Source: Caldilineaceae bacterium (GTDB lineage Bacteria; Chloroflexota; Anaerolineae; Caldilineales; Caldilineaceae). Taken from it: a DNA stretch of 64,000 bases. Of this stretch, positions 34,463 through 54,223 are shown piece after piece. Position 1 is the first letter of the stretch; each line of letters starts with the position of its first letter. The notes below the pieces were generated by a model. That model saw only the letters and a program-made list of their open reading frames with translations, ran no database searches and was not told the DNA's origin. The position numbers and the translations under genes are program-made. The DNA lies in contig WTGY01000141.1 in assembly GCA_011523365.1 (NCBI GenBank), positions 1 to 64,000 of the forward strand, in the 5' to 3' direction.

Positions 34463-34559
34463 TCTATTAGTGTACCCAGTCATTTGTGTCTGGCTGGACA
34501 TGAATGAAATAACTCATTAGAATCTCTACAGGTTGCAAGAGTCAATGAGGAGATGCCTT

Positions 34560-35489
34560 ATGGATCGCGAAATCATCCATGACTGGCTGCGCGGCCCCGT
34601 CGTGGCTGTTGCGACACCGTTCAAAGAAGATTTCTCCCTCGACCTGGCCGCCCTGCAAGACAATATCCGCTTCATGATCGAAGGCGGCGTCACGACAGGT
34701 GACGGCGTCCTGTTGGTCGGCGCAGCGGGCGGCGAGTTCCCAACCCTCAATCTGGATGAGCGCAAAGCGATTATGGATGCCGCCGTCGCAGCTGCCCGCG
34801 GCCAGGTGCCCGTCATGACCAGCATCCAGCATACCGATTACCGGGTCATCCTCGACCTCGTCAGCCACGCTGAACAAGCCGGCATCGCCGCCGCCCAGTT
34901 GGGTCAGCTCTACTACTACCCATCCACCGAGCGCGACGTCTACAATCTCTTCAAACTGGTCGCCGATAACGCCGCGTTAACCCTCATGGTCTACCACACA
35001 CCCTGGGACGGCATCCACATGAGCCGCGATCTGCTGACCCAGCTGACATCCATTCCAACGGTGGGAGCAATCAAGTGGGCCTCAGAGGATGCGGCCGTCT
35101 TCCGCGACACGATTTTGGACTTCAAGGACGCGGTCGCCATGGTCGATAATGAGGGCCACCACGTTCTCAGCCACATGTATGGAGCGCGGGCTTTCGTCAC
35201 GCATCTCAGCGGTTTCTGGCCCCAGTATCCGCGCAAGCTCTGGCGTCTTCTGGAGGCCGGAAAGTACGACGATGCGCACGCGACGCTCGCTGCATTCAAA
35301 TGGAAGTGGACTGCTTGGGTGGAGGAGGCAGTCAAGTATACCGAGGGCGAGGGACCGTTCATTAAGGCGGCAATGGAAGCGGTAGGCCTGAAGGTCGGCC
35401 CGCCCCGCCCGCCCTATTCACGCCTGTCGTCCGAACTCCTTGCCCAACTGCAAACCCTCTTTCGCGAGGCGGGAGTGCCCCGAGTTTGA
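34560..35489 (+). CDS. DapA/NanA-superfamily aldolase-lyase
   Basis: This 309-residue class I aldolase is of the dihydrodipicolinate synthase / N-acetylneuraminate lyase superfamily. GAAGGEFPTLNLDERKAIM corresponds to the substrate carboxylate-binding loop. The catalytic Tyr is in LMVYHTPWDGI and the Schiff-base Lys in VGAIKWASED. The Trp after the Lys and the C-terminal FKWKWTAWVEEA region differ from true DapA, so a sugar-acid or neuraminate-type substrate is more likely than lysine synthesis. ATG at 34560, with GAGGAG 10 bases before, is chosen over a TTG upstream. It faces the sialidase-like/transporter operon, consistent with a joint catabolic role. Confidence 0.83.
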   Translation: MDREIIHDWLRGPVVAVATPFKEDFSLDLAALQDNIRFMIEGGVTTGDGVLLVGAAGGEFPTLNLDERKAIMDAAVAAARGQVPVMTSIQHTDYRVILDLVSHAEQAGIAAAQLGQLYYYPSTERDVYNLFKLVADNAALTLMVYHTPWDGIHMSRDLLTQLTSIPTVGAIKWASEDAAVFRDTILDFKDAVAMVDNEGHHVLSHMYGARAFVTHLSGFWPQYPRKLWRLLEAGKYDDAHATLAAFKWKWTAWVEEAVKYTEGEGPFIKAAMEAVGLKVGPPRPPYSRLSSELLAQLQTLFREAGVPRV

Positions 35490-35600
35490 ACCTGTTGAGG
35501 CGGTCAACGGTGCCGTCTTCGCGTAGCCTGCGCACGGGTCGCCCACTGCAGACGGCAATTCCTCTGTACGTCAGACCGCCATCCTCGCCTCCGAACTGTC

Positions 35601-36581
35601 CTATCTCCGTACCGGCGCCAGCGCGCGCGGATTCAAAGCATCGTTGAGACCGTCGCCAAAGAAGTTGAAGGCGATGATCGCCAGCATCAAAAGAATACCC
35701 GGCATCAGTACCAGGTGGGGATAGTAACGCCACTGTCCCATGCTCAGCACAATCATGTTGCCCCAGCTGGCCCCGGGGGGCTGGATGCCGATGCCGATGA
35801 AACTGAGGCTCGACTCATACATCATCGCCCCGCCGAAACTGCTGCTCAGTGCCACGATCACCGGGCCGATCGCGTTCGGCACCAGATGACGCAAGATAAT
35901 CCAGCGCTCCCTTGCACCCACGCAACGGGCAGCCAGTACAAAATCGGTCGCCCGCAGCGTCAGCACCTGCCCGCGTATCAAGCGGCCGATACCGGCCCAC
36001 CCAATCATCGACAACGCCCCAAACACGACCAGGTAATCAATATAGACCGTGTTATCGGCAAGCAGACTGATTCCCTGCGTCTCCTCAAGGCTCCGCGCCA
36101 ACCGCAGGACCCAGGGCCGCATCGTCGAGGCCAGCAACATCGCCACCAGAATGTGCGGAAAGCTGTCGAACAGGTCGACCGTGCGTACAAACACGGCATC
36201 GGTAAGCCCGCCGCGATAGGCCGCCAGCGTGCCGAAAAGGATGCCGATCAGATAGGAAATTGACGTACTCACGACGGCCACCATGATAGCCGTTCGCCCG
36301 CCCCAAAGCAGGCGCGACAGCATGTCACGCCCCAATTCGTCTGTACCCAGCAAATGCTCGCGGCTCGGGCCTTGATTGTACGCCCGCAAGTCCTGCTCAA
36401 GGTAGTCCTGCGGCGCCAGTAACGGTCCGAAGATGCCGATGAAGAAGACGAAAACAATGACAAACAGGCTGACCATCGCCAGCCTGTTGGCAACCAACTT
36501 GCGCACGGCATCGCGCACGAGGCTGCGTTCGTCCTGCCGGAACAGCTGGCTGGTCTCGGAAACCTCCTTGTACACGATCAT
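35601..36581 (-). CDS. ABC transporter permease (OppC/DppC family)
   Basis: The 326-residue permease has an OppC-type N-terminal segment and about six membrane helices. The conserved cytoplasmic EAA-like loop is GARERWIILRHLVPNAIGPVIV. LLGTDELGRDMLSRLLWGGRTA is the OppC signature stretch. It forms the heterodimeric channel with the OppB-type partner encoded just upstream (4-base overlap). It is the last gene of the leftward operon. No ATPase genes (OppD/OppF) follow. Confidence 0.9.
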   Translation of the reverse strand: MIVYKEVSETSQLFRQDERSLVRDAVRKLVANRLAMVSLFVIVFVFFIGIFGPLLAPQDYLEQDLRAYNQGPSREHLLGTDELGRDMLSRLLWGGRTAIMVAVVSTSISYLIGILFGTLAAYRGGLTDAVFVRTVDLFDSFPHILVAMLLASTMRPWVLRLARSLEETQGISLLADNTVYIDYLVVFGALSMIGWAGIGRLIRGQVLTLRATDFVLAARCVGARERWIILRHLVPNAIGPVIVALSSSFGGAMMYESSLSFIGIGIQPPGASWGNMIVLSMGQWRYYPHLVLMPGILLMLAIIAFNFFGDGLNDALNPRALAPVRR

Positions 36582-37534
36582 ACCTCCTCGACGCGCCTGC
36601 CCAGCCGGACGCGGGGGTCGACCAGCCCGTAGGACACGTCAAGGACCAGATTCAAGGTCATCGCTATCACCGCCGCCACCACCGTCGTCGCCAGAATTAC
36701 GGGAAAGTCTCGTGCCACAAAGGACTGAAAACTGAGTGCCCCGTAGCCGGGAATGTTGAAAACGCGTTCAACAAAGATGGAACCCTGCAGGATCCCCCCG
36801 AACAGCCCCACGCCGACCGACAACAGGGGCGTCAAAATGTGGCGAAAGATATGCCGCCATATGACCATTCGGCGCGGCAACCCCTTTGCGTACGCCGTGC
36901 GCACATAGTCCTGTCGGATTACTTCCAGCACCGCACTCCGCGCTTGGCGCACAATACCCATCAGCGGCCCCACCGCGATACAGAACGCAGGCAGCACAAT
37001 ACGCGCGTCGAAGACGCCGCCCCAGCCAATTGGATTCTTCAGAACAGGGATGACCAATACAAACAGAATGAGCAGCATCGGCGCCAATACAAAGGTGGGG
37101 ATCGACGACAACACTACCGATGCCGACACAATCGCGTAGTCGACCAGAGAGTTCTGTCTCAAGGCCGCGAGAATCCCTAGGGGAACGCCCATCCCGACCG
37201 TTATGACAAAAGCAACGAAACCGAGTTGGACGCTGACAGGCAGTGCGCGCCGGATCATCACCTCGATCGGGCGGCCGCCGGCCCAGATCGATTTGCCGAA
37301 AGTCCCGCGTACCAGGCCGGTGACGTAATCGCCGAACTGCACCAGGAAAGGCCGGTCTAACCCATACTGCCTGCGCAGTGCCTCGTAGGCTTCCTCGCTC
37401 AACCTGCCCTGCTGCTCCAGAAAAACACGGATCGGATCGCCAGGACCGAAATAGGTCAGCGTGAACGCGATAAAGATGCCAACCAGAAGCGTCGGTACGA
37501 TAGCACCCAGACGCCTGATGATGTACCCGATCAC
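36578..37534 (-). CDS. ABC transporter permease (OppB/DppB family)
   Basis: The 318-residue permease starts MIGYIIRRLGAIVPTLLVG with the family's FTLTYFGPGDPIRVFL. It has six predicted helices, the EAA loop in VIRQDYVRTAYAKGLPRRMV, and GYGALSFQSFVARDFPVI near the end. It pairs with the OppC-type subunit. It lies 128 bases downstream of the first sialidase-like gene. Confidence 0.92.
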   Translation of the reverse strand: MIGYIIRRLGAIVPTLLVGIFIAFTLTYFGPGDPIRVFLEQQGRLSEEAYEALRRQYGLDRPFLVQFGDYVTGLVRGTFGKSIWAGGRPIEVMIRRALPVSVQLGFVAFVITVGMGVPLGILAALRQNSLVDYAIVSASVVLSSIPTFVLAPMLLILFVLVIPVLKNPIGWGGVFDARIVLPAFCIAVGPLMGIVRQARSAVLEVIRQDYVRTAYAKGLPRRMVIWRHIFRHILTPLLSVGVGLFGGILQGSIFVERVFNIPGYGALSFQSFVARDFPVILATTVVAAVIAMTLNLVLDVSYGLVDPRVRLGRRVEEV

Positions 37535-37662
37535 TCTGGTTCACCGCCGCTGTCCTGCAGCATCGACCTCCAGGCCCAGCGAATAACCGTGGGGCTTTCT
37601 TTCTTACAGAATCTACTGCGGGCAGCGCGGCCTGAAACCTTGATTGCAGCCTCCCAACAGTC

Positions 37663-38724
37663 CTACTTTCCGTAAAACCAGTCGATTCCGATTCGCGCCA
37701 CGTAAATGCCGTCCCGCTTATGGTAGCTGATCAGCGCCATATCATCCACAAAGGTCAGACTTGGATAGCCGTAGTCGTCCTCAGGATCAGAACCGATCTC
37801 GCGTTCGTGGATCCAGGTGTCGCCCTCATCCGTTGAAACTGCTGAGACGAATGGAGTGCGGAGGCGATTCTTGGTGTCCGTCGAGCGCAGCAATAGCAGG
37901 TCGCCCGTAGACGGGATACGCTTGACGTTGAGTGCCGACGAGTTGCTTGAGAGCTTCAAACTGCGCACATGCTCGCCTGGCGACCAGGTGGCCCCTTCGT
38001 CTTCGGAATAGGACCGGACAATGTATTCGCTGTACGTCCGGCACAGCATCATCAGACGGCCATCTTTTAATGGGACCACGTGCGGCTCCTGCGCCTCCAC
38101 CGGCAGCGTATCGACCACGTTCTGCGACTGCCACCAGGAATAGCCGTCGTCGTCGGAGTAGAAAACCAGGCTGACGTAGCCGCGATGGTCGCCGCCCTCT
38201 TCCTTGATCTCCCTCTCGCAGGGTGCGAGTATCCGACCGGAGGACAGTTGGATCAGTTTGTCGTTGAAAACATGATTCGTGCCGGCGTGGGGCGTAACGA
38301 TCAACTGATCGCCCCATGTCGCGCCGTCGTCGGTCGAGCGGCGGTAGTAGGAGTGCGCGTAACGCGGCATCGAGCCGGCAAAGTAAATGTAGGACATGAG
38401 CAGCTGCCCGTTGGCCAGCCTCAGAAAACTGGGGTGCCAGTATCCCTCATCCTTGCGATACGGCTTTGGCCGCGAAATGAGTAGGAACGGCTCACCCCAG
38501 GTCTTGCCCCCCTCATTTGAGACCCGTCCCATGATGTCACCAACGTCGATGCTATCTCCAGGGCTGTCATCGTTGCATGTGTATGAGAGCAACAGACGTC
38601 CATCATTGAGTTGTACGATATCGCCCACATTCCCGCGGTAGCCAAACCTCCGCCTCGGCAACTTCATAACATGGACGTCTTCGAAGGAAGCGCCTGAGGT
38701 CTCTGCTGAACGATTGGATTGCAT
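37663..38724 (-). CDS. BNR/Asp-box sialidase-like protein, copy 1
   Basis: The 353-residue six-bladed propeller of the BNR sialidase superfamily has five Asp-box motifs (SNEGGKTW, STDDGATW, SDDDGYSW, SEDEGATW, STDEGDTW). The propeller lies between FGYRGNVGDI near the start and DGIYVARIGIDWFYGK at the end. There is no signal peptide, so it is probably cytoplasmic or acts on imported oligosaccharide. ATG at 38724 is chosen. A longer frame would run into the upstream binding-protein gene. It is a clear paralogue of the gene at 40646-41827. True sialidase activity is not proven: the catalytic Arg triad and Tyr/Glu need alignment. Confidence 0.8.
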   Translation of the reverse strand: MQSNRSAETSGASFEDVHVMKLPRRRFGYRGNVGDIVQLNDGRLLLSYTCNDDSPGDSIDVGDIMGRVSNEGGKTWGEPFLLISRPKPYRKDEGYWHPSFLRLANGQLLMSYIYFAGSMPRYAHSYYRRSTDDGATWGDQLIVTPHAGTNHVFNDKLIQLSSGRILAPCEREIKEEGGDHRGYVSLVFYSDDDGYSWWQSQNVVDTLPVEAQEPHVVPLKDGRLMMLCRTYSEYIVRSYSEDEGATWSPGEHVRSLKLSSNSSALNVKRIPSTGDLLLLRSTDTKNRLRTPFVSAVSTDEGDTWIHEREIGSDPEDDYGYPSLTFVDDMALISYHKRDGIYVARIGIDWFYGK

Positions 38725-38810
38725 TGGTAACCCCGCCCTTGATTTGCCTTGTCCATTGCCGCGGCGGCGGTGAAGAAAGGCCAGATCTCTCCACCACCGC
38801 CGTGCAGTGG

Positions 38811-40505
38811 TCACTCCTCGGCGATGTATATGTATTCGGAATTGATCCAACGAAAAGTGGGATCGAAGACAACGCCCTTTACGTTCGGCCTCACCAGGAA
38901 CCTGCCTTCCGGCCAGTAAAGTGGGATCATCCAGTACTCGCTCCAGACGACATCCACAAACTCCGACCAGGCCTGGATGCGCGCGGCCCTATCGGGATTC
39001 GATTCTATTTCCGCCAACAGCGCGTCGGTACGTTCATCACCCCAATGCGCATGACGCGTGGATATGAAAGAATCGCTGGCGAAGTTGTAAGAACCCCAGG
39101 CCTGGGCATCCATGGAAAAAGTTTCATAGCCATCCTCCCAGATCTGGAATTTCACTCTTTCGGATGGCTCCATACTGGAAGCGACGGTGATCTGGATCTC
39201 GATGCCGGTCGCATCGGCCACCATCTGCTGGACCGCCTGGGCTACCTGTGCCCATTCGGGGTCCGGATAGCGGGACCAGTAGAGGATTGGGGGCACGTTT
39301 TCGGCGCTGCCGTATGAGGAATCGGCGACCGCCTGCCTGGCGCGTTCCGGGTCCGGTTGCCAATACCCGGGCCGGTCTTCGCGGTGGAAAGGCCCGGAGG
39401 GGATGATGCCGGTCGCCCGCCGTTGCAGGTTGCGATAGACCGTCTCATGGATCAGATCCAGATCGATTGAGTAAAAGATGGCTTCGCGGATTTTGGGATC
39501 GTTGGTCGGCTCCGCCGCGAGGTCAAATTCGAGCCACTGCAAGCCGGCAATGCCGAAGGTCTGCACATGGTCATGCAGGGGATGGTTGGAATCGTTCATA
39601 AACTGGGCGAAATCTGCGGTCGAAGGCATGGCGATGTCCAACTCGCCACTTTCGTAGAGCACCAACTGGGTCTGCCGGTCCTGTATGCCCTTGAACGTCA
39701 TCTTCTGCAACAGGGCCTGGGGTCCCAGCGTGTAATGGGGATTGGGCACCAGCACGCTCACGTCCTCTTCCGGATCGAAGGATTCCACCATGAAGGGACC
39801 AAAGCCGCCACAAAAGTCGGGATGTTCATGCCAAGGCATCTCCCCCGTACCGAGTCTGATCTGTGCCGGGTCGAGAAGCCCCCAGGCGCCCAGGTTGCCC
39901 GAGGATGCCACGTCAATGAAAGCTGGCGTCACGCCCTTCAGTTTGACCTGCAGCGTGTGGTCGTCAAGGGCGACCAGCCCGCTGATTGCCGCTTCGCCCC
40001 ATTGGTCGAAGTCCCATGGGCCCACATCCGCCGTTGCTTCGAGGAACTCCTCTATGCCGTCCACCATGTACCAGGCGTAATCCTTAGCCCACTTGAACTG
40101 GATATTGAGCCACTCCCAGCCCCACTTGACATCCTGGGCCGTAATCGGCTCACCCGTACACCACTTCAAATCGGGATTCAGGCTGAAAGTATAGACTGTG
40201 CCTTCTTCGTTGACTTCCCATGAGTCGGCAGCCCATGGGCGAATGCTGCCGTCAGGATGTCGCTCCAGAAGGCCGCCGCCCATGACTAGACCGCCATCAT
40301 ACCAAGAGCCCTCAGTGAAATGGCCCGAGAAATAGAAGACCCTGCCCATGGTCAGTTCCTGGCTGGCGGCCATATCGGCCGGTCTCCCAGAGTCGGTGGA
40401 GTCCGCCTCTTGTGGGGCTTCAGCGGGAACTGCTGCGGGGGCGCACGCGGTAAGCAGAAACGACAGAATCACGAGCAGACTGGCGAATCTCAGATACTTT
40501 TCCAT
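38811..40505 (-). CDS. Family 5 solute-binding lipoprotein, copy 1
   Basis: The 564-residue extracellular receptor of the peptide/opine/oligosaccharide class (SBP_bac_5) has a lipoprotein signal (FASLLVILSFLLTAC, Cys21) followed by a Pro/Ala/Ser/Asp-rich tether. The mature domain includes LNPDLKWCTGEPITAQDVKW, FGPFMVESFDPEEDVSVLVP, ESGELDIAMPST and YWPEGRFLVRPN. It delivers ligand to the downstream OppB/OppC-type permeases. It is a near twin of the 41868-43577 product. Confidence 0.93.
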   Translation of the reverse strand: MEKYLRFASLLVILSFLLTACAPAAVPAEAPQEADSTDSGRPADMAASQELTMGRVFYFSGHFTEGSWYDGGLVMGGGLLERHPDGSIRPWAADSWEVNEEGTVYTFSLNPDLKWCTGEPITAQDVKWGWEWLNIQFKWAKDYAWYMVDGIEEFLEATADVGPWDFDQWGEAAISGLVALDDHTLQVKLKGVTPAFIDVASSGNLGAWGLLDPAQIRLGTGEMPWHEHPDFCGGFGPFMVESFDPEEDVSVLVPNPHYTLGPQALLQKMTFKGIQDRQTQLVLYESGELDIAMPSTADFAQFMNDSNHPLHDHVQTFGIAGLQWLEFDLAAEPTNDPKIREAIFYSIDLDLIHETVYRNLQRRATGIIPSGPFHREDRPGYWQPDPERARQAVADSSYGSAENVPPILYWSRYPDPEWAQVAQAVQQMVADATGIEIQITVASSMEPSERVKFQIWEDGYETFSMDAQAWGSYNFASDSFISTRHAHWGDERTDALLAEIESNPDRAARIQAWSEFVDVVWSEYWMIPLYWPEGRFLVRPNVKGVVFDPTFRWINSEYIYIAEE

Positions 40506-40645
40506 CAGAACTCCTCCTTACCACAGAAGCGGTAGGGACCTGGAAATAGCTGCTCCAGGATGAACCTATAGGCTGTCGATATTGATTTGCGGGCTTACCA
40601 CCTCCCCTTTCCTGTCATCCATCGCAACCTTCCAGCAGACTGATT

Positions 40646-41827
40646 CTATTTGCCGTAAAACCAGTCGATGTCGATTCGCGCCACGTAGATGCCGTCCCGC
40701 TTATGATAGCTGACCAGCGCCATATCGTTCACAAAGGTCAGGCTCGGATAGCCATAATCCTCATCGGGGTCGGAACCGACCGGCCGTTCATGGATCCACG
40801 TGCGGCCTTCATCCCTGGAGATTGCTGAGACAAACGGTGTGCGCAGTCTGTTCTTGGTGTCGGTCGAGCGCAGCAGAAGCAGGTCTCCGGTAGACGGGAT
40901 ACGTTTGACGTTGAGCGCCGACCCAACGATCGAGAGTGTCAAGCTGCGCACATGCTCAGCCGGCGACCATGTGACACCCTCGTCTTCGGAATAGGATCGG
41001 ACGATGTAACCGCTGTGCGTCCGGCAAAGCATCAACAGGCTACCGTCCTTCAAAGGGACCACGTGCGGCTCCTGCGCCTCCACCGGCAGGATATCGATAA
41101 CATTGTCAGAACGGTGCCAGGAATAGCCGTCGTCGTCGGAGTAGAAAACGTAGCTGATATAGCCGCTGTGGTCGTCACCCTCCTCCCTGATCTCCTTCTC
41201 GCAAGGGGCGAGGATACGACCGGAGGGCAGTTGGATGAGCTTGTCGTTGAAGACGTGATTTGTGCCGGCGAGGGGCGTGGCGATCAGTTGATCGCCCCAG
41301 GATTCGCCGTCGTCAGTCGAACGGCGGTAGTACGTGTGGGCGAAGCGCGGAAAAGATTCAGAAAAGTAAAAATAGATGTAGGAAAGAAGCAGTTGGCCGT
41401 TCTGCAAACGCAGCAGACTGGGGTGCCAGTATCCCTCATCCTCGCGAAATGGCTTCGCGCGCGCAATCAGCCTTTCCGGCTCACTCCACGTCTTGCCCTG
41501 GTCTCCGGAGTACCGTTTAACGATATCTCCAGCGCCTACGTTGTCTCCAAGGATGTCACCGGATTCAGTGTAACATATCAACAGCCGTCCATCTCTGAGC
41601 AGGGCGATATCGCCCACATTGCCGCGGTACCCGTACTTGTGTTTGGGCATCTTCGCCACATGTAAATCTTCGAAAAAGGCGTTAGAGGTCTCTGCCCTTT
41701 GATGGGAACCCAGTCCTGATTCCTCCTTACTCTTGCTCCTCCCTTGCCACGGCCAAAGGGGAGAGAGACTGAAGTAAATCCCGTTCGAAGCCAGGACCTT
41801 CTGCATCGGGCAGGGGCAGGCTTCCAT
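40646..41827 (-). CDS. BNR/Asp-box sialidase-like protein, copy 2
   Basis: This paralogue of the 37663-38724 product is alignable from about the GLGSHQRAETS region to the identical C terminus DWFYGK. Five Asp boxes are present (SGDQGKTW, STDDGESW, SDDDGYSW, SEDEGVTW, SRDEGRTW). The start is uncertain. The first ATG (41827) gives 393 residues, but the first 40 or so have no counterpart in copy 1, so translation may start at an internal non-ATG codon or at the ATG before PKHKYGYRGN. There is no signal peptide under any of these options. It lies between the two binding-protein genes in the duplicated unit. Confidence 0.78.
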   Translation of the reverse strand: MEACPCPMQKVLASNGIYFSLSPLWPWQGRSKSKEESGLGSHQRAETSNAFFEDLHVAKMPKHKYGYRGNVGDIALLRDGRLLICYTESGDILGDNVGAGDIVKRYSGDQGKTWSEPERLIARAKPFREDEGYWHPSLLRLQNGQLLLSYIYFYFSESFPRFAHTYYRRSTDDGESWGDQLIATPLAGTNHVFNDKLIQLPSGRILAPCEKEIREEGDDHSGYISYVFYSDDDGYSWHRSDNVIDILPVEAQEPHVVPLKDGSLLMLCRTHSGYIVRSYSEDEGVTWSPAEHVRSLTLSIVGSALNVKRIPSTGDLLLLRSTDTKNRLRTPFVSAISRDEGRTWIHERPVGSDPDEDYGYPSLTFVNDMALVSYHKRDGIYVARIDIDWFYGK

Positions 41828-41867
41828 CCTGAGCCCACTTCAGGCCTCTCTCTACCTTATACGACTG

Positions 41868-43577
41868 TTACTCCTCAGCAATGTACATGTATTCGGCATT
41901 GATCCAACGGAAAGTGGGATCGAAAGCCAGTCCCTGCACGTTCGGGTTCACCAGGAATCTGCCGGTCGGCCAGTAAAGCGGGATCATCCAGTACTCGCCA
42001 AAGACGATATCCTCGAACTCCGTCCACGCCGCAATGCGGTCTGCCTCATTTGGATTCGACTCGATTTCCGCCAGCAGCGAATCGGTATGCTCATCCCCCC
42101 AATGTGTATGGCGCGTTGCGATGAAAGAGTCACTGGCGAAATTGTATGACCCCCAAGCCTGGGCGTCCAGGGAGAACGTTCCGTAGCTGTCCTCCCAGAT
42201 CTGATACTTCACCCTCTCAGTTGCCTCCATACTGGAGGCAACCGTAATCTGGATATCCAGGCCCGTCGCATCTTTCACCATCTGCTGCACCGCCTGGGCC
42301 AGCTGCGGCCATTCAGGGTCCGGGTAGCGGGACCAGTAAAGAATTGGCGGCACGTTTTCGGCGCTGCCATAGGTGGAGTCTGCCACCGCCTGCCTGGCCC
42401 GCTCCGGGTCCGCCTGCCAGTACGCCGGCCGGTCCTCACGGTAGAACGGTCCCGAAGGGATGATACCCGTCGCCCGCCGCCTCAGGTTGCGATAGACCGT
42501 CTCATGGATCAGGTCCAGGTCGATCGAGAAATAGATGGCTTCGCGGATCTTGGGATCGTTTGTCGGTTCCGCCGAGACATCGAATTCAAGCCACTGCAAC
42601 CCGGCCAGACCGAATCCCTGGACATGCCCATTCAAAGGGTGGTTCGGGTCGCTGGTGAACTGGGCGAAATCAGCGGTCGACGGCATCGCGATGTCCAGCT
42701 CGCCGCTTTCGTAGAGCACCAGCTGCGTCTGCCGGTCCTGTATCGACTTTAGCGTGATTTTGTCCAGCAGGGGCTGGGGTCCCAGTACGTAATGGGGATT
42801 GGGTACCAGCACGCTCACATCCTCTTCCGGGTCGTAGGTTTCCACCATGAAGGGACCGAAGCCCCCGCAATAGTCGGGATGTTCATGCCACGGTGCTTCG
42901 TCTGTCCCAAGTCTGATCTGCGCCGGGTCGAGAAGCCCCCATGTGCCCAGAATGCCCGAAGACGTGACGTCAATGAATGCTGGAGTCACGCCCTTCAGAT
43001 TGACCTGAAGCGTATGGTCATCCAGGACAACCAGGCCGCTGATTTCGGCGTCGCCCCAACTGTCGAAATCATAGGTGGCCACGTCCGCGGTTGCCTCCAG
43101 GAATTCGTCAATTCCTTCCACCATGTACCAGGCGTAATCCTTGGCCCACTTGAACCGGATATTGAGCCACTCCCAGCCCCACTTGACATCCTGGGCCGTA
43201 ATCTGCTCACCTGTACACCACTTCAAATCGGGATTCAGGTTGAAAGTATAGACGGTGCCATCGTCGCTGACATCCCATGAGTCGGCAGCCCATGAGCGGA
43301 TACTGCCGTCAGGATGCCGCTCCAGAAGGCCGCCGCCCATGACATTGGTACCGTCATACCAGGCAGCCTCATTGATGTGGCCCGCAAAATAGAAGACCCT
43401 GCCCACCGTCAGCTCCTGGTTGGCGGCCATATCCGATGGTCTTGAAGAGTCGCTAGAGTCCGCCTCGGAGGCTGCCGCCTCTTGCGGGGCTTCGGCGGGA
43501 ACTGCTGCGGGGGCGCACGCGGTGAGTAGAAACGACAGAATGACGAGCAAATTGGCAAACCTCAGACACTTGTTCAT
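41868..43577 (-). CDS. Family 5 solute-binding lipoprotein, copy 2
   Basis: The 569-residue first gene of the leftward operon encodes a solute-binding lipoprotein (FANLLVILSFLLTAC lipobox). It is the paralogue of the 38811-40505 product, with the same block order and long identical stretches, such as RRATGIIPSGPF and SADFAQF-type segments. The Ala/Ser/Glu tether is six residues longer. ATG at 43577 follows AGGAGG by seven bases. Whether the two receptors bind the same ligand is unknown, but both feed the same permease pair by position. Confidence 0.93.
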   Translation of the reverse strand: MNKCLRFANLLVILSFLLTACAPAAVPAEAPQEAAASEADSSDSSRPSDMAANQELTVGRVFYFAGHINEAAWYDGTNVMGGGLLERHPDGSIRSWAADSWDVSDDGTVYTFNLNPDLKWCTGEQITAQDVKWGWEWLNIRFKWAKDYAWYMVEGIDEFLEATADVATYDFDSWGDAEISGLVVLDDHTLQVNLKGVTPAFIDVTSSGILGTWGLLDPAQIRLGTDEAPWHEHPDYCGGFGPFMVETYDPEEDVSVLVPNPHYVLGPQPLLDKITLKSIQDRQTQLVLYESGELDIAMPSTADFAQFTSDPNHPLNGHVQGFGLAGLQWLEFDVSAEPTNDPKIREAIYFSIDLDLIHETVYRNLRRRATGIIPSGPFYREDRPAYWQADPERARQAVADSTYGSAENVPPILYWSRYPDPEWPQLAQAVQQMVKDATGLDIQITVASSMEATERVKYQIWEDSYGTFSLDAQAWGSYNFASDSFIATRHTHWGDEHTDSLLAEIESNPNEADRIAAWTEFEDIVFGEYWMIPLYWPTGRFLVNPNVQGLAFDPTFRWINAEYMYIAEE

Positions 43578-43925
43578 CACTGTTCCTCCTTGTCATGGAT
43601 GCAAATGGACCCGCAAAAGAGAATCCCGAGATGAGCCTGTAGGTCGTTGCTATGAGTCGAAGATCGGGCTGAATTTCTGCCAATGAGATTGCCCAATTTC
43701 AAGATTTCTAATAAAGACCTGGATATTTTATGTAGGTACCAAATGAAGGGTGAAGACAACCTCTGGGAGAACCCAGACCGTTAGATTGCTCAGCCCGCTC
43801 TGACTCCCCAGAGGTTTGCGAAAACTCACCGCCTGTCGGACTGCACCCCCAAGTGAGAGGGCCGCATCCCAGATGTAAGGGAGGGGAGCAGCATTCGAAA
43901 GGACGGGAAGGAGGAAGGGATCTCC
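43578..43925. other. Intergenic region upstream of the binding-protein/sialidase operon
   Basis: The 348 bases are AT-richer in their right-hand part (around 43680-43745) and probably carry the leftward promoter. I could not match a convincing -35/-10 pair. No gene is visible. Confidence 0.4.
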
Positions 43926-44562: not shown

Positions 44563-45492
44563 TCAAACCTCCACCTCCTCAGCCCCCTTCACCACCGGTC
44601 GTATCGCCGCAATATGCTCCGGGCCCGTAGCGCAACAGCCGCCGATGATCTGGGCGCCCATCTCGAGCCAGTCACGCGCAAACTCGGCATATCGCTCAGG
44701 AGGATAATCGTCGGTCTCGATCACGTGCCACTGTCGCTTGGGAAATTCCGGTCGTCCGGACGCCTGATTGTAGCCGATGTTGGCATACGCCCCGACAGGT
44801 CCGTCAAATGCCGTGCGCAGCTTGGGCAACGAGGCCGAAATCGCCTCAGGCCGGCTGCACATTGGCAGGATCGCATCAACGCCATATCCTTCCAGGCCGT
44901 CTGCCAGCTGCTCAAACGATTCACCGTCAGAGTTGGTCCCTTCCAGAGTGACATGCTTGAGACCCAGAAAAATGGGCAGTCCGGTCCCCGAGACCGCCCG
45001 AACTGCCTCAACACAGTCGGCCACCGATCCTACATACTCAAGCAGAATGATGTCCACGCCCCCTGCCGCCAGCACCGCCGACTGGTCGCTGAACTCCTTC
45101 GCCAGGTCCCCCCAGCCCGGAGGAGCCATACTGCCGGCCACATACGCTTGCGGATTCAGCCCGTCCCGTGCCTCGCACGCAATCTCCGCCGCCAGGTGCG
45201 TGTACTCCTCCATTTTGTCCGCCAGCCCCACCATGCCCAGCCGCTCACGATTGGTCCAGAAGCTGTTGGTCGTGATGATATCCGCGCCCTCGCGCAGGTA
45301 ATCTTCATGGACCTCGCGTACCAGCTCCGGCGCATCCCCCATAGCCGTCGCCGACCATGGACCGAGCCCCCCATCAGCGGTCACGCCTTTAGAGACATTG
45401 ACGCCGCGGCGCTGTAGCTCCGATCCGGTAGCGCCGTCCAACAATAGCCGCTCTCCCTCTGTCAATCGAGACCGAATATCATCCCTATTCAT
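44563..45492 (-). CDS. Homocysteine S-methyltransferase family protein
   Basis: The 309-residue TIM barrel is of the Pfam S-methyl_trans family (MmuM, BHMT, MetH N-terminal domain). It has the N-terminal LLLDGATGSELQRRG and the zinc cysteines in ILPMCSRPEAI and GGCCATGPEHI, which together supply three Cys ligands. The enzyme would transfer a methyl group to homocysteine, or to another thiol or selenol, giving methionine; the donor may be S-methylmethionine or a betaine. No cobalamin domain is present. GAGGAGA precedes the ATG. A consensus promoter lies over 200 bases upstream, with a foldable leader between. Confidence 0.88.
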   Translation of the reverse strand: MNRDDIRSRLTEGERLLLDGATGSELQRRGVNVSKGVTADGGLGPWSATAMGDAPELVREVHEDYLREGADIITTNSFWTNRERLGMVGLADKMEEYTHLAAEIACEARDGLNPQAYVAGSMAPPGWGDLAKEFSDQSAVLAAGGVDIILLEYVGSVADCVEAVRAVSGTGLPIFLGLKHVTLEGTNSDGESFEQLADGLEGYGVDAILPMCSRPEAISASLPKLRTAFDGPVGAYANIGYNQASGRPEFPKRQWHVIETDDYPPERYAEFARDWLEMGAQIIGGCCATGPEHIAAIRPVVKGAEEVEV

Positions 45493-52780: not shown

Positions 52781-54223
52781 CTACGGTTCGACTGCGTCCG
52801 CGTAGTCCAGCATCGCCGCCGCCGCCGTCTCTAGGTCACCGAAAACACCCAATCCAACCGACGCCGCCACCGCCGCACCCACCGCCGCCTCTTCCGCATG
52901 GCTCGGTATCAGCAACGTCTTCTCGAAACGGCGCGCCAGGATCTGGACCAGCAGCCCGTTCTGCCGGACCCCGTTTCCCGCGCCCACCAGGAGCGGCGGC
53001 GTTCCCACCACCGGCTCCATCTGTTCAAAAAAGGCGAAAAAGCCGTCCGCCATGCCCTCGAGCAGGGCCCGCGCGAAATGGGCAGGCGTGAAATTGTCCG
53101 GTGACAGCCCCCTGAACGAAGCCCGCAACCCCGGATCGGTGCGGCTGCCGCTGAAGAACGGTTCACATCGCAGCCCGTCACTGCCCGCAGGGACCGTCGC
53201 CGCCAGTCCCGTCATTCGTTCGTAAAGGTCGCTCGGCGTTTCAACTCCCAAAAGTTGCGCGCCCACCTGCTGAAAGAATACCTGCAAGTAAGCATAGGAA
53301 CGCCCGCCGAACAGCCCTCCTCCTATCAGTAGATACTGTCCCCCAGGGAAAGGGCGGTTTTCCAACCCGGGAATGAAATGAAAACTGCCCGTCCGGGCAG
53401 AAATCTGGCCCCCGGTTCCCACATTCAGGAGCAGACTGCGGCCCGGCTCCGGTGCACTGCCGATGAAACTGGCCTGGTTGTCCCCCAGCGCGATCGTTAC
53501 CGGCGTCCCCGGCTCCAAACCGACAGCTTCAGCCAGCCCGCGCCGCAAACCCCCCACAATATCCCCGGCGTCGCCGATCGGCGGGAAGAGACCTGCCGGC
53601 AGCGCCAACCGCTCCAAGAGCGTCGAATCCCAACAGTTCGCCCGGATGTCGAAGATCCCGGAACTCCCCGCCAGCGTCGGCTCACACACCACCGACGCGC
53701 CCGTCATGAACGAGACCACCGCATCCGGGACAAAGCAGGCAGTCACCGGGGGATCGGGCAGATCCCCCTGCAAACTGAGCCAGTACAGGCTGGGTCCCAG
53801 AAACCCCGCCGCCGGCAGGCAGCCGGTGTTGCGAAAGGCCTCACGCCCTCCCGCGGCCGAAATGAACCGCTCCAGCACCGGCCTGTCAGAACCGGGCAAC
53901 GGCTCCTGCACCCGCAAGTCCTGCCACGTAATCGCGGGCCCGGCCGGCGAAGCGTCCGGTCTGATCAGGGCAACCCCATGCTGCTGTCCCGTGACCCCGA
54001 TGCCTTGGATGTCCGACGAGCCCAAGTCTGCCTGCGCTACCAGTCCCGCCAGGCACTCCACTGCCAGTTCGTACAAGTGCGCCAGGTCCAGCTCAGCCCG
54101 CCCAGGTCCCGGAGACGAACCAGCGCGGTTGGCAACAGTCCGGTGGGCCGCCTGCCTGCCGCTCACTGGATCCAGCACAACCGCACTCAATGAAGTCGTG
54201 CCAATATCGAGTCCGATGATCAT
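52781..54223 (-). CDS. FGGY-family carbohydrate kinase
   Basis: The 480-residue sugar kinase belongs to the xylulokinase/sedoheptulokinase/gluconokinase family. It has the N-terminal phosphate motif GLDIGTTSLSAVVLD, the GIGVTGQQHGVALI segment with the GQxHG of xylulokinase-like enzymes, the catalytic Asp in ALGDNQASFIGS, and the adenosine motif LLVGAGNGVRQNGLLVQILA. GDNQAS is common in sedoheptulokinase-like members, so D-sedoheptulose or D-xylulose are both possible. The divergent neighbour is a PhyH dioxygenase with a 248-base gap in which I see no clear promoter pair. Confidence 0.87.
   Translation of the reverse strand: MIIGLDIGTTSLSAVVLDPVSGRQAAHRTVANRAGSSPGPGRAELDLAHLYELAVECLAGLVAQADLGSSDIQGIGVTGQQHGVALIRPDASPAGPAITWQDLRVQEPLPGSDRPVLERFISAAGGREAFRNTGCLPAAGFLGPSLYWLSLQGDLPDPPVTACFVPDAVVSFMTGASVVCEPTLAGSSGIFDIRANCWDSTLLERLALPAGLFPPIGDAGDIVGGLRRGLAEAVGLEPGTPVTIALGDNQASFIGSAPEPGRSLLLNVGTGGQISARTGSFHFIPGLENRPFPGGQYLLIGGGLFGGRSYAYLQVFFQQVGAQLLGVETPSDLYERMTGLAATVPAGSDGLRCEPFFSGSRTDPGLRASFRGLSPDNFTPAHFARALLEGMADGFFAFFEQMEPVVGTPPLLVGAGNGVRQNGLLVQILARRFEKTLLIPSHAEEAAVGAAVAASVGLGVFGDLETAAAAMLDYADAVEP

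Follow-up and report, generated by a model that had tools for sequence, protein, structure and literature searches.

A block of seven genes located between positions 34560 and 43580 of contig WTGY01000141.1, from a Caldilineaceae bacterium (assembly GCA_011523365.1; 5.67 Mb in 214 contigs), constitutes in our judgement a real cassette that probably imports an acidic sugar compound and then cleaves it within the cell. The first 64,000 nucleotides of the contig were analysed and are hereafter called the window. The block encodes a DapA-superfamily (DHDPS-family) enzyme, two solute-binding lipoproteins (SBPa and SBPb), two sialidase-fold proteins (BNRa and BNRb) and two ATP-binding cassette (ABC) permeases (PermB and PermC). 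A preliminary description, made from the letters of the window, had proposed an island for the catabolism of neuraminate-type sugars, and this proposal is partly supported: a Kdn- or Kdo-like ulosonate without an acetyl group, or a sugar acid akin to it, is more likely to be the substrate than N-acetylneuraminic acid (Neu5Ac). We consider it slightly short of an even chance, and therefore state only tentatively, that the block is a catabolic cassette for an acidic sugar compound and is either mobile or has been lost repeatedly. What the analysis shows directly is which genes are present, the fold predicted for them, the conserved residues, the lack of signal peptides, the joint inheritance of the genes and the absence of NanE.

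In the scheme that we propose, SBPa and SBPb would capture a small carboxylate-bearing glycoside or oligosaccharide, and PermB and PermC would import it with the help of an ATPase presumably encoded elsewhere in the genome. To judge by their predicted fold and residues, the BNR proteins would then grip the carboxylate by a cluster of arginines in the cytosol and cleave the glycosidic bond by means of a Tyr/Glu pair. The 2-keto-type sugar acid set free in this way may be the substrate of the DapA-superfamily enzyme, which would use its Schiff-base lysine.

All seven genes listed in the preliminary description are present, with best Pfam E-values that range from 7e-25 to 3.2e-58 and are far past chance. 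An AlphaFold2 model of BNRa (pLDDT 89.1, pTM 0.89) adopts the six-bladed propeller fold of the GH33 sialidases. Its best structural match is the Micromonospora viridifaciens sialidase 2ber (Z 36.3, root-mean-square deviation 2.6 over 320 residues; about 24% identity), and its best Foldseek E-value (4.7e-18) is with a Propionibacterium sialidase. The 50 structure matches listed for the model, which are no proof that other folds are absent, are sialidases or sialidase-based constructs plus 5hx0 (function unknown). Asp boxes of the form S-x-D-x-G-x-x-W occur five times in BNRa, and BNRb carries four exact copies and one with E.

Residues are numbered by the 354-residue model of BNRa. In a profile alignment with the M. 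viridifaciens enzyme (1EUR), the Glu, the Tyr and two arginines (Arg2 and Arg3) coincide with residues of the enzyme for which we assume the customary roles and numbers. Among 26 aligned sequences, two of which are the window BNRs, the alignment-dependent counts are 26 for both Glu214 and Tyr321, and 25 for both Arg230 (Arg2) and Arg290 (Arg3). The list of GH33 residues was taken from passages of PMC10298468.

The preliminary description also held that the hydrolases lack signal peptides, and this was borne out when the longest open reading frames (ORFs) were compared with six SBP controls in a simple test of hydropathy. The source genome contains 20 BNR_2 matches, one of which fell below the cut-off and was dropped. 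None of the 19 remaining proteins, both window BNRs included, has an N-terminal hydrophobic stretch, and the BNRs are likely to be cytosolic. Moreover, two related genomes (G303 and G314) carry a stop codon inside the stretch that aligns with the longer N-terminus of BNRa in the window, and the gene therefore starts below that longer N-terminus in these two. An N-terminal hydrophobic stretch is present in eight of the ten subfamily relatives tested in other lineages (45–60% identity), namely five from Hydrogenedentota, one each from Acidobacteria and Planctomycetia, and a single one among three records from Armatimonadota. Because most of the relatives tested elsewhere carry this stretch and none of the 19 proteins does, it seems, by inference as far as the direction goes, that the sponge lineage moved a once-secreted protein into the cytosol. 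Thus the part of the earlier proposal that placed cleavage inside the cell is likely to hold. Its suggestion that such an order is unusual does not, given that passages of PMC10298468 and PMC5758520 describe the sialidases of Bifidobacterium infantis as intracellular, and import before cleavage is therefore not a new principle.

Further evidence comes from 17 genomes, each representing a species of this Caldilineaceae genus and including the source genome, which were searched with E-value limits of 1e-20 (BNR), 1e-30 (DapA) and 1e-100 (SBP). A BNR gene of the window subfamily is present in 14 of these genomes, while the DapA gene and the SBP gene are found in an identical set of six (G000, G303, G305, G309, G314 and G315). 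All six also carry PermB, PermC and a BNR gene at the same site; two have one SBP–BNR pair and four have two, those of G303 being split over two contigs. At the other eight loci, for which 14–20 kb were read per genome with atpC on one side and a gene for a 1072-residue protein on the other, a single BNR gene stands alone, without a tblastn match (E 1e-5) to DapA, PermB, PermC, SBP, the homocysteine S-methyltransferase-family (PF02574) protein or the 207-residue protein that are encoded beyond SBPa in the window. Three genomes (G304, G310 and G312) gave no BNR, DapA or SBP gene at the thresholds used, and the locus itself was not read in these. The methyltransferase gene is present at all four cassette loci whose contig extends to it and at none of the eight BNR-alone loci, and no match to it was found near the BNR or DapA genes of 34 other loci. 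The 207-residue protein is encoded within the block in G000 and G314 and was not found in G309 or G315. In each of the 11 relatives for which the stretch extends far enough, the 1072-residue protein itself is encoded beside the locus.

A tree built from AtpA, AtpG, AtpD, AtpC and the 1072-residue neighbour, which is a tree of the flanks and not of the genomes, does not unite the six cassette genomes in one clade. G309 and G315 group with G307, G308 and G313 (support 0.997), and G301, which has a BNR gene alone, is placed among the other four cassette species with low support (0.355). The simplest reading is that the block was gained or lost as a whole, and more than once. We assume that the other genomes of the genus derive from sponges, as does the member named bin5 (MPML). 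The host of bin5 is the sponge Aplysina aerophoba, according to the portion of PMC5649159 that deals with it.

The two SBP–BNR units arose by tandem duplication, with amino acid identities of about 82% (SBPs) and 74% (BNRs) and DNA identities of 82% and 78%, respectively. The ratio of nonsynonymous to synonymous substitution rates (dN/dS) lies between 0.035 and 0.21 in all 15 pairs tested, which indicates purifying selection and hence that the duplicates are being maintained. Values remain at 0.13–0.21 for pairs involving G301, G306 or G316, in which the acid/base residue is E, A and E, respectively.

Similar combinations of gene families recur at other sites. Contig C2 of the source genome carries, in one direction, the order BNR–SBP_bac_5–PermB–PermC–BNR–DHDPS; its members are distant paralogues, the BNR proteins sharing 24–26% identity with BNRa and the DHDPS protein lacking the KW motif of the window enzyme. 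Neighbourhoods were inspected for three relatives of the DapA-like protein from outside the genus (G321, G098 and G240). That of G321, which belongs to another genus of the family, reads GntR/FCD–DHDPS–SBP_bac_1/8–permease–permease–BNR_2 in one direction (DHDPS 36% identical to the window protein), followed by an Ldh_2 gene, a galactarate/altronate dehydratase-family (GD_AH) gene and a further BNR_2 gene. Within the source genome, the 19 BNR_2 proteins form 12 clusters. Seven of these have a scored ABC permease gene no more than 5 kb away, whereas 15.9% of the genome is that close to one (p about 0.001, binomial test); this background is approximate in that 150 of 332 permease candidates were scored and contig ends were ignored. 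Uncorrected p values at 3, 4, 5 and 8 kb are 0.006, 0.003, 0.001 and 0.007. A site on contig C195 (L040:6528-11601) has four consecutive BNR_2 genes near an Opp-type importer.

The DapA-superfamily enzyme is numbered here over the 318 residues that begin at 34533. Its Schiff-base Lys181 and its Tyr154 align with those of Escherichia coli NanA, DapA and YagE, and the lysine sits in the sequence AIKWASED, such that the atypical ‘KW’ context pointed out previously is real. The clade is further marked by A(G/A)G(E/D), which replaces GSTGE, and by Y(H/N)TxW, as judged from an alignment of 23 rows from which seven (L001, L002 and L015-L019, wrong strand) were left out. Among the three E. coli paralogues, identity is 28% with YagE, 22% with NanA and 19% with DapA. 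None of six further NanA positions is kept: Ser47, Thr48, Thr167, Asp191, Glu192 and Ser208, which we take to be the correct E. coli numbers, are replaced by Ala, Gly, Ala, Glu, Gly and His. The protein also misses the NCBIfam cut-offs for NanA (TIGR00683, 56.7 versus 382 bits; NF003164, 70.2 versus 281 bits) and for KdgD (TIGR03249, 66.3 versus 373.95 bits). Kinship with NanA as judged by the best NCBIfam match was dropped as an argument, since all matches were under cut-off.

The locus might instead be a uronate- or aldarate-type cassette, wherein the BNR proteins would free a hexuronate or aldonate and the DapA-like enzyme would serve as a 2-keto-3-deoxy-sugar-acid aldolase or dehydratase of the YagE or KdgD kind. 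However, a cluster of arginines with Tyr and Glu is a signature of 2-ulosonate enzymes and not of uronate enzymes, the KdgD cut-off is missed, and no uronate-pathway gene was recognised among the genes of the block with Pfam. The enzyme does resemble YagE most among the three paralogues and has a GGEF motif in common with it, the G321 operon runs on into Ldh_2 and GD_AH genes and a second BNR gene, and sections of PMC6306507 report uronate pathways in Anaerolineae and Caldilineae from sponges. On balance, we regard this alternative as rather unlikely.

Genes for the later steps of sialic acid use are likewise informative. The absence of nanE from the window, as noted previously, extends to the rest of the source genome and to all 17 genomes of the genus, where no NanE (PF04131) was found; in a control, eight of 14 genomes gave a PF04131 match, six of them over the cut-off. 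The reported absence of nanK and nagA was judged solely from Pfam scans of 38 window ORFs, with no genome search for them. A gene of the PF07221 epimerase family occurs in all 17 genomes. It is no evidence for the island, because it is also found in the 11 genomes that lack the cassette and, in the source genome, lies on another contig.

The importer is of the Opp/Dpp type, with an SBP_bac_5 receptor and two permeases. None of the 48 PF08352 matches in the genome, which would correspond to Opp-type ATPases, lies on this contig, and their number makes it plausible that an ATPase is shared from elsewhere in the genome. The best solved relatives of SBPa are the peptide receptors DppE and OppA, and SatA (5z99), which presumably belongs to the SBP_bac_5 family as well, is not among the best 60 of 62 Protein Data Bank matches. 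SatA is the subject of PMC11364026. According to excerpts of PMC8754123, most actinobacterial ABC importers for Neu5Ac use SBP_bac_5 (PF00496) receptors, and the receptor family therefore permits sialic acid as a ligand.

Given these components, one could envisage ordinary use of Neu5Ac, whereby a sialoside is imported and cut by a cytosolic sialidase, a NanA-like lyase acts on the product, and an AGE-type epimerase converts N-acetylmannosamine to N-acetylglucosamine. The receptor family just mentioned, the widespread PF07221 gene and the D at the acid/base position of both window BNRs are consistent with this route, as is the intracellular location of the B. infantis sialidases, which passages of PMC10298468 associate with a similar gene cluster. 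It is opposed by the loss of all six NanA positions, by the lack of NanE throughout the genus, by the presence of the epimerase-family gene in genomes without the cassette and on a separate contig in the source genome, and by an acid/base Asp that is not conserved across the BNR subfamily. We consider this route very unlikely. Thus, what stands of the neuraminate proposal is the sialidase fold, the Glu, the Tyr and two of the arginines, the SBP_bac_5 family and the joint inheritance of DapA and transporter genes, whereas the residues and scores of the lyase, the missing NanE and the unconserved Asp speak against it. The qualification attached to that proposal, that the substrate might be another nonulosonate or acidic sugar, fits the data best.

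Several observations weigh against the reading that we propose. With regard to the BNR proteins, neither window sequence contains the Y/FRIP motif and both have GYRGN instead. Two members of the arginine triad, whose alignment the preliminary description had suggested as a check, coincide with those of 1EUR; the candidate for the first member, Arg29, is invariant (26/26) but two residues off-register from the Y/FRIP arginine. At the acid/base position (Asp56 in BNRa), 7 of the 26 sequences have D, 8 have E, 3 have A, 2 have S, 1 has F and 5 have a gap, so that D or E is found in 15; these counts, too, depend on the alignment. With regard to gene context, the DapA-like gene lies convergent to the operon rather than forming part of its transcript, and the co-inherited PF02574 methyltransferase has no evident place in the scheme. 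The closest DapA relative outside the genus (G098, 49% identity) is surrounded by rpoC, thrS, citrate synthase and gcvT/H-type genes, with no BNR or permease gene among the ORFs scanned. The neighbours of the G240 relative (35%) encode a GntR/FCD regulator, an SDR enzyme, a class III aminotransferase and a second DHDPS; the 10 ORFs scanned there included neither a permease nor a BNR, and a lone SBP_bac_1 ORF lies about 8 kb away. None of the ORFs picked in 15 neighbourhoods (3.7–21 kb) of BNR relatives from other lineages matched DapA, SBP or the permeases, and in the source genome alone DapA and BNR genes are only weakly associated in position (2 of 10 lie within 10 kb of each other, p 0.06). 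An unrelated context in relatives, which had been named in advance as grounds for abandoning the neuraminate proposal, is therefore encountered in part, in the G321 relative upstream of the galactarate/altronate dehydratase-family gene and in the housekeeping neighbours of the G098 relative.

Because the acid/base position varies, hydrolysis by the BNR proteins is not assured. Within a 15-row alignment from the genus, D is present in all six transporter-linked rows and in the outgroup row, and in three of the eight BNR-alone rows (L081-L088), the other five having N (1), E (3) or A (1). Given that the fold, the Asp boxes and the Tyr/Glu pair are present, that the Y/FRIP motif is not, and that the arginine triad and the acid/base Asp are equivocal, we call the window BNRs sialidase-fold proteins rather than clear sialidases. 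Elsewhere in the same genome (contig C161, L041:452-1516), a BNR_2 protein without a signal peptide shows, by eye, YRIP, GDAGEID, E, R, R and Y in apparently classical GH33 positions. To judge from these residues, it is a better sialidase candidate than the window BNRs.

It could also be that the BNR proteins are not glycosidases at all (but binding, mutarotase-like or other proteins), that the DapA-like gene is a passenger, and that an Opp-type importer simply lies beside a common propeller protein. The variable acid/base position, where purifying selection is nevertheless evident with E or A as well (G301, G306 and G316), would suit such a view, as would the BNR-alone loci of eight species and the housekeeping surroundings of the closest DapA relative outside the genus. 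Nevertheless, we judge it quite improbable, since the arginine cluster, the Glu and the Tyr are nearly invariant, DapA and the transporter are present or absent together, and the same families (two BNRs, an importer and a DHDPS) recur elsewhere in the genome.

YRGN-type BNR proteins are encoded in metagenome-assembled genomes of Caldilineaceae, Hydrogenedentota, Acidobacteria, Armatimonadota and Planctomycetia. A bolder version of our proposal, which we think unlikely, is that this sialidase-fold subfamily keeps an invariant arginine cluster and the Tyr/Glu pair and dispenses with the acid/base Asp. It would accordingly require either an acidic sugar whose leaving group is good or a different mechanism. 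The Caldilineaceae of sponges would then have lost the secretion signal and joined the protein to an importer and a DapA-superfamily enzyme, thereby establishing a novel route for the use of an ulosonate-like compound from the sea.

The arrangement of the locus is as follows (coordinates in Table 1). On the minus strand, the window ORFs and their Pfam matches give the order SBPa, BNRa, SBPb, BNRb, PermB and PermC. The DapA-like gene is outside this operon and converges on PermC with 111 bp between them. It lies downstream of the ATP synthase genes and on their strand; the gap between atpC and its start is 132 bp for the TTG codon or 159 bp for the ATG codon. GC content ranges from 0.54 to 0.61 across the block, with no sharp break.

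Table 1. Genes of the cassette and other annotated features, in window coordinates
Feature	Position	Strand	Evidence and remarks
Protein of 1543 residues	1455-6086		numerous PD40 propeller repeats; also fibronectin III-like matches
DapA-superfamily (DHDPS-family) gene, KW clade	34533 (TTG) or 34560 (ATG) to 35489	+	PF00701 E 7.7e-35; dN/dS 0.11-0.13
PermC, OppC-type ABC permease	35601-36581	-	PF00528 E 7e-25 and OppC_N; dN/dS 0.065 versus G309
PermB, OppB-type ABC permease	36578-37534	-	PF00528 E 5.4e-36; dN/dS 0.035 versus G309
BNRb, sialidase-fold protein, no signal peptide	37663-38724/38850	-	BNR_2 E 8.6e-38; probable start ATG 38724
SBPb, solute-binding lipoprotein, SBP_bac_5	38811-40505	-	PF00496 E 2.7e-55; LTAC lipobox-like signal in translation
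BNRa, sialidase-fold protein, no signal peptide	40646-41713/41827	-	BNR_2 E 2.1e-34; possible start CTG 41713 behind AAGGAGG, or ATG 41806/41827
SBPa, solute-binding lipoprotein, SBP_bac_5	41868-43580	-	PF00496 E 3.2e-58
Protein of 207 residues	43926-44549	-	weak, below-cut-off YitT_membrane match
Homocysteine S-methyltransferase-family gene	44563-45492	-	PF02574 E 6.5e-51
Protein of 1072 residues	46068-49286		SH3_3 domain, otherwise no Pfam match over cut-off
FGGY-type carbohydrate kinase	52781-54223		

Two genome surveys, in the portions of PMC6306507 and PMC8163846 that concern sponge symbionts, Caldilineae included, take GH33 genes as a sign that sialic acids of the host are used. If our observations hold true more widely, this inference of host sialic acid foraging needs to be tested in sponge symbionts, because none of the 19 BNR_2 proteins appears to be secreted, seven of 12 clusters are near an importer, NanE was found in none of the 17 genomes, and the two window BNRs are not clear sialidases. 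The cassette supplies testable candidates with which the true substrate could be sought. A shallow literature search, which carries little weight as a negative, returned no published description of it.

Several known systems resemble parts of the cassette. E. coli YagE, a 2-keto-3-deoxygluconate aldolase, shares the Schiff-base Lys, the Tyr and the GGEF motif with the DapA-superfamily enzyme, whereas in the window protein the lysine belongs to IKWASED, four residues are inserted near residue 56, and the gene context differs. The GH33 sialidase of M. viridifaciens (1EUR/2BER) is alike in its propeller, its Asp boxes and its Tyr, Glu and two Arg, but the window BNRs are distant from it in sequence, have YRGN in place of Y/FRIP and a variable acid/base residue, and lack a secretion signal. 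The ST3 sialic acid importers (receptor family according to excerpts of PMC8754123), to which SatABCD of Haemophilus ducreyi presumably belongs, similarly combine a PF00496 receptor with two permeases, from which the cassette differs by the peptide-receptor relatives of SBPa and by the lack of an ATPase gene. The nan clusters of B. infantis and B. breve, as described in passages of PMC10298468 and PMC5758520, likewise combine an importer, a cytosolic sialidase-fold enzyme and a DapA-superfamily enzyme. However, they carry NanA, NanE and NanK, whereas the genus examined here is without NanE and its lyase is without the NanA residues, and the window BNRs differ from the bifidobacterial sialidases by the absence of the FRIP motif and of a conserved acid/base Asp. 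What is new is thus the combination of an unclear acid/base residue, a lyase that is not NanA, no NanE, a duplicated receptor and enzyme, and a co-inherited methyltransferase.

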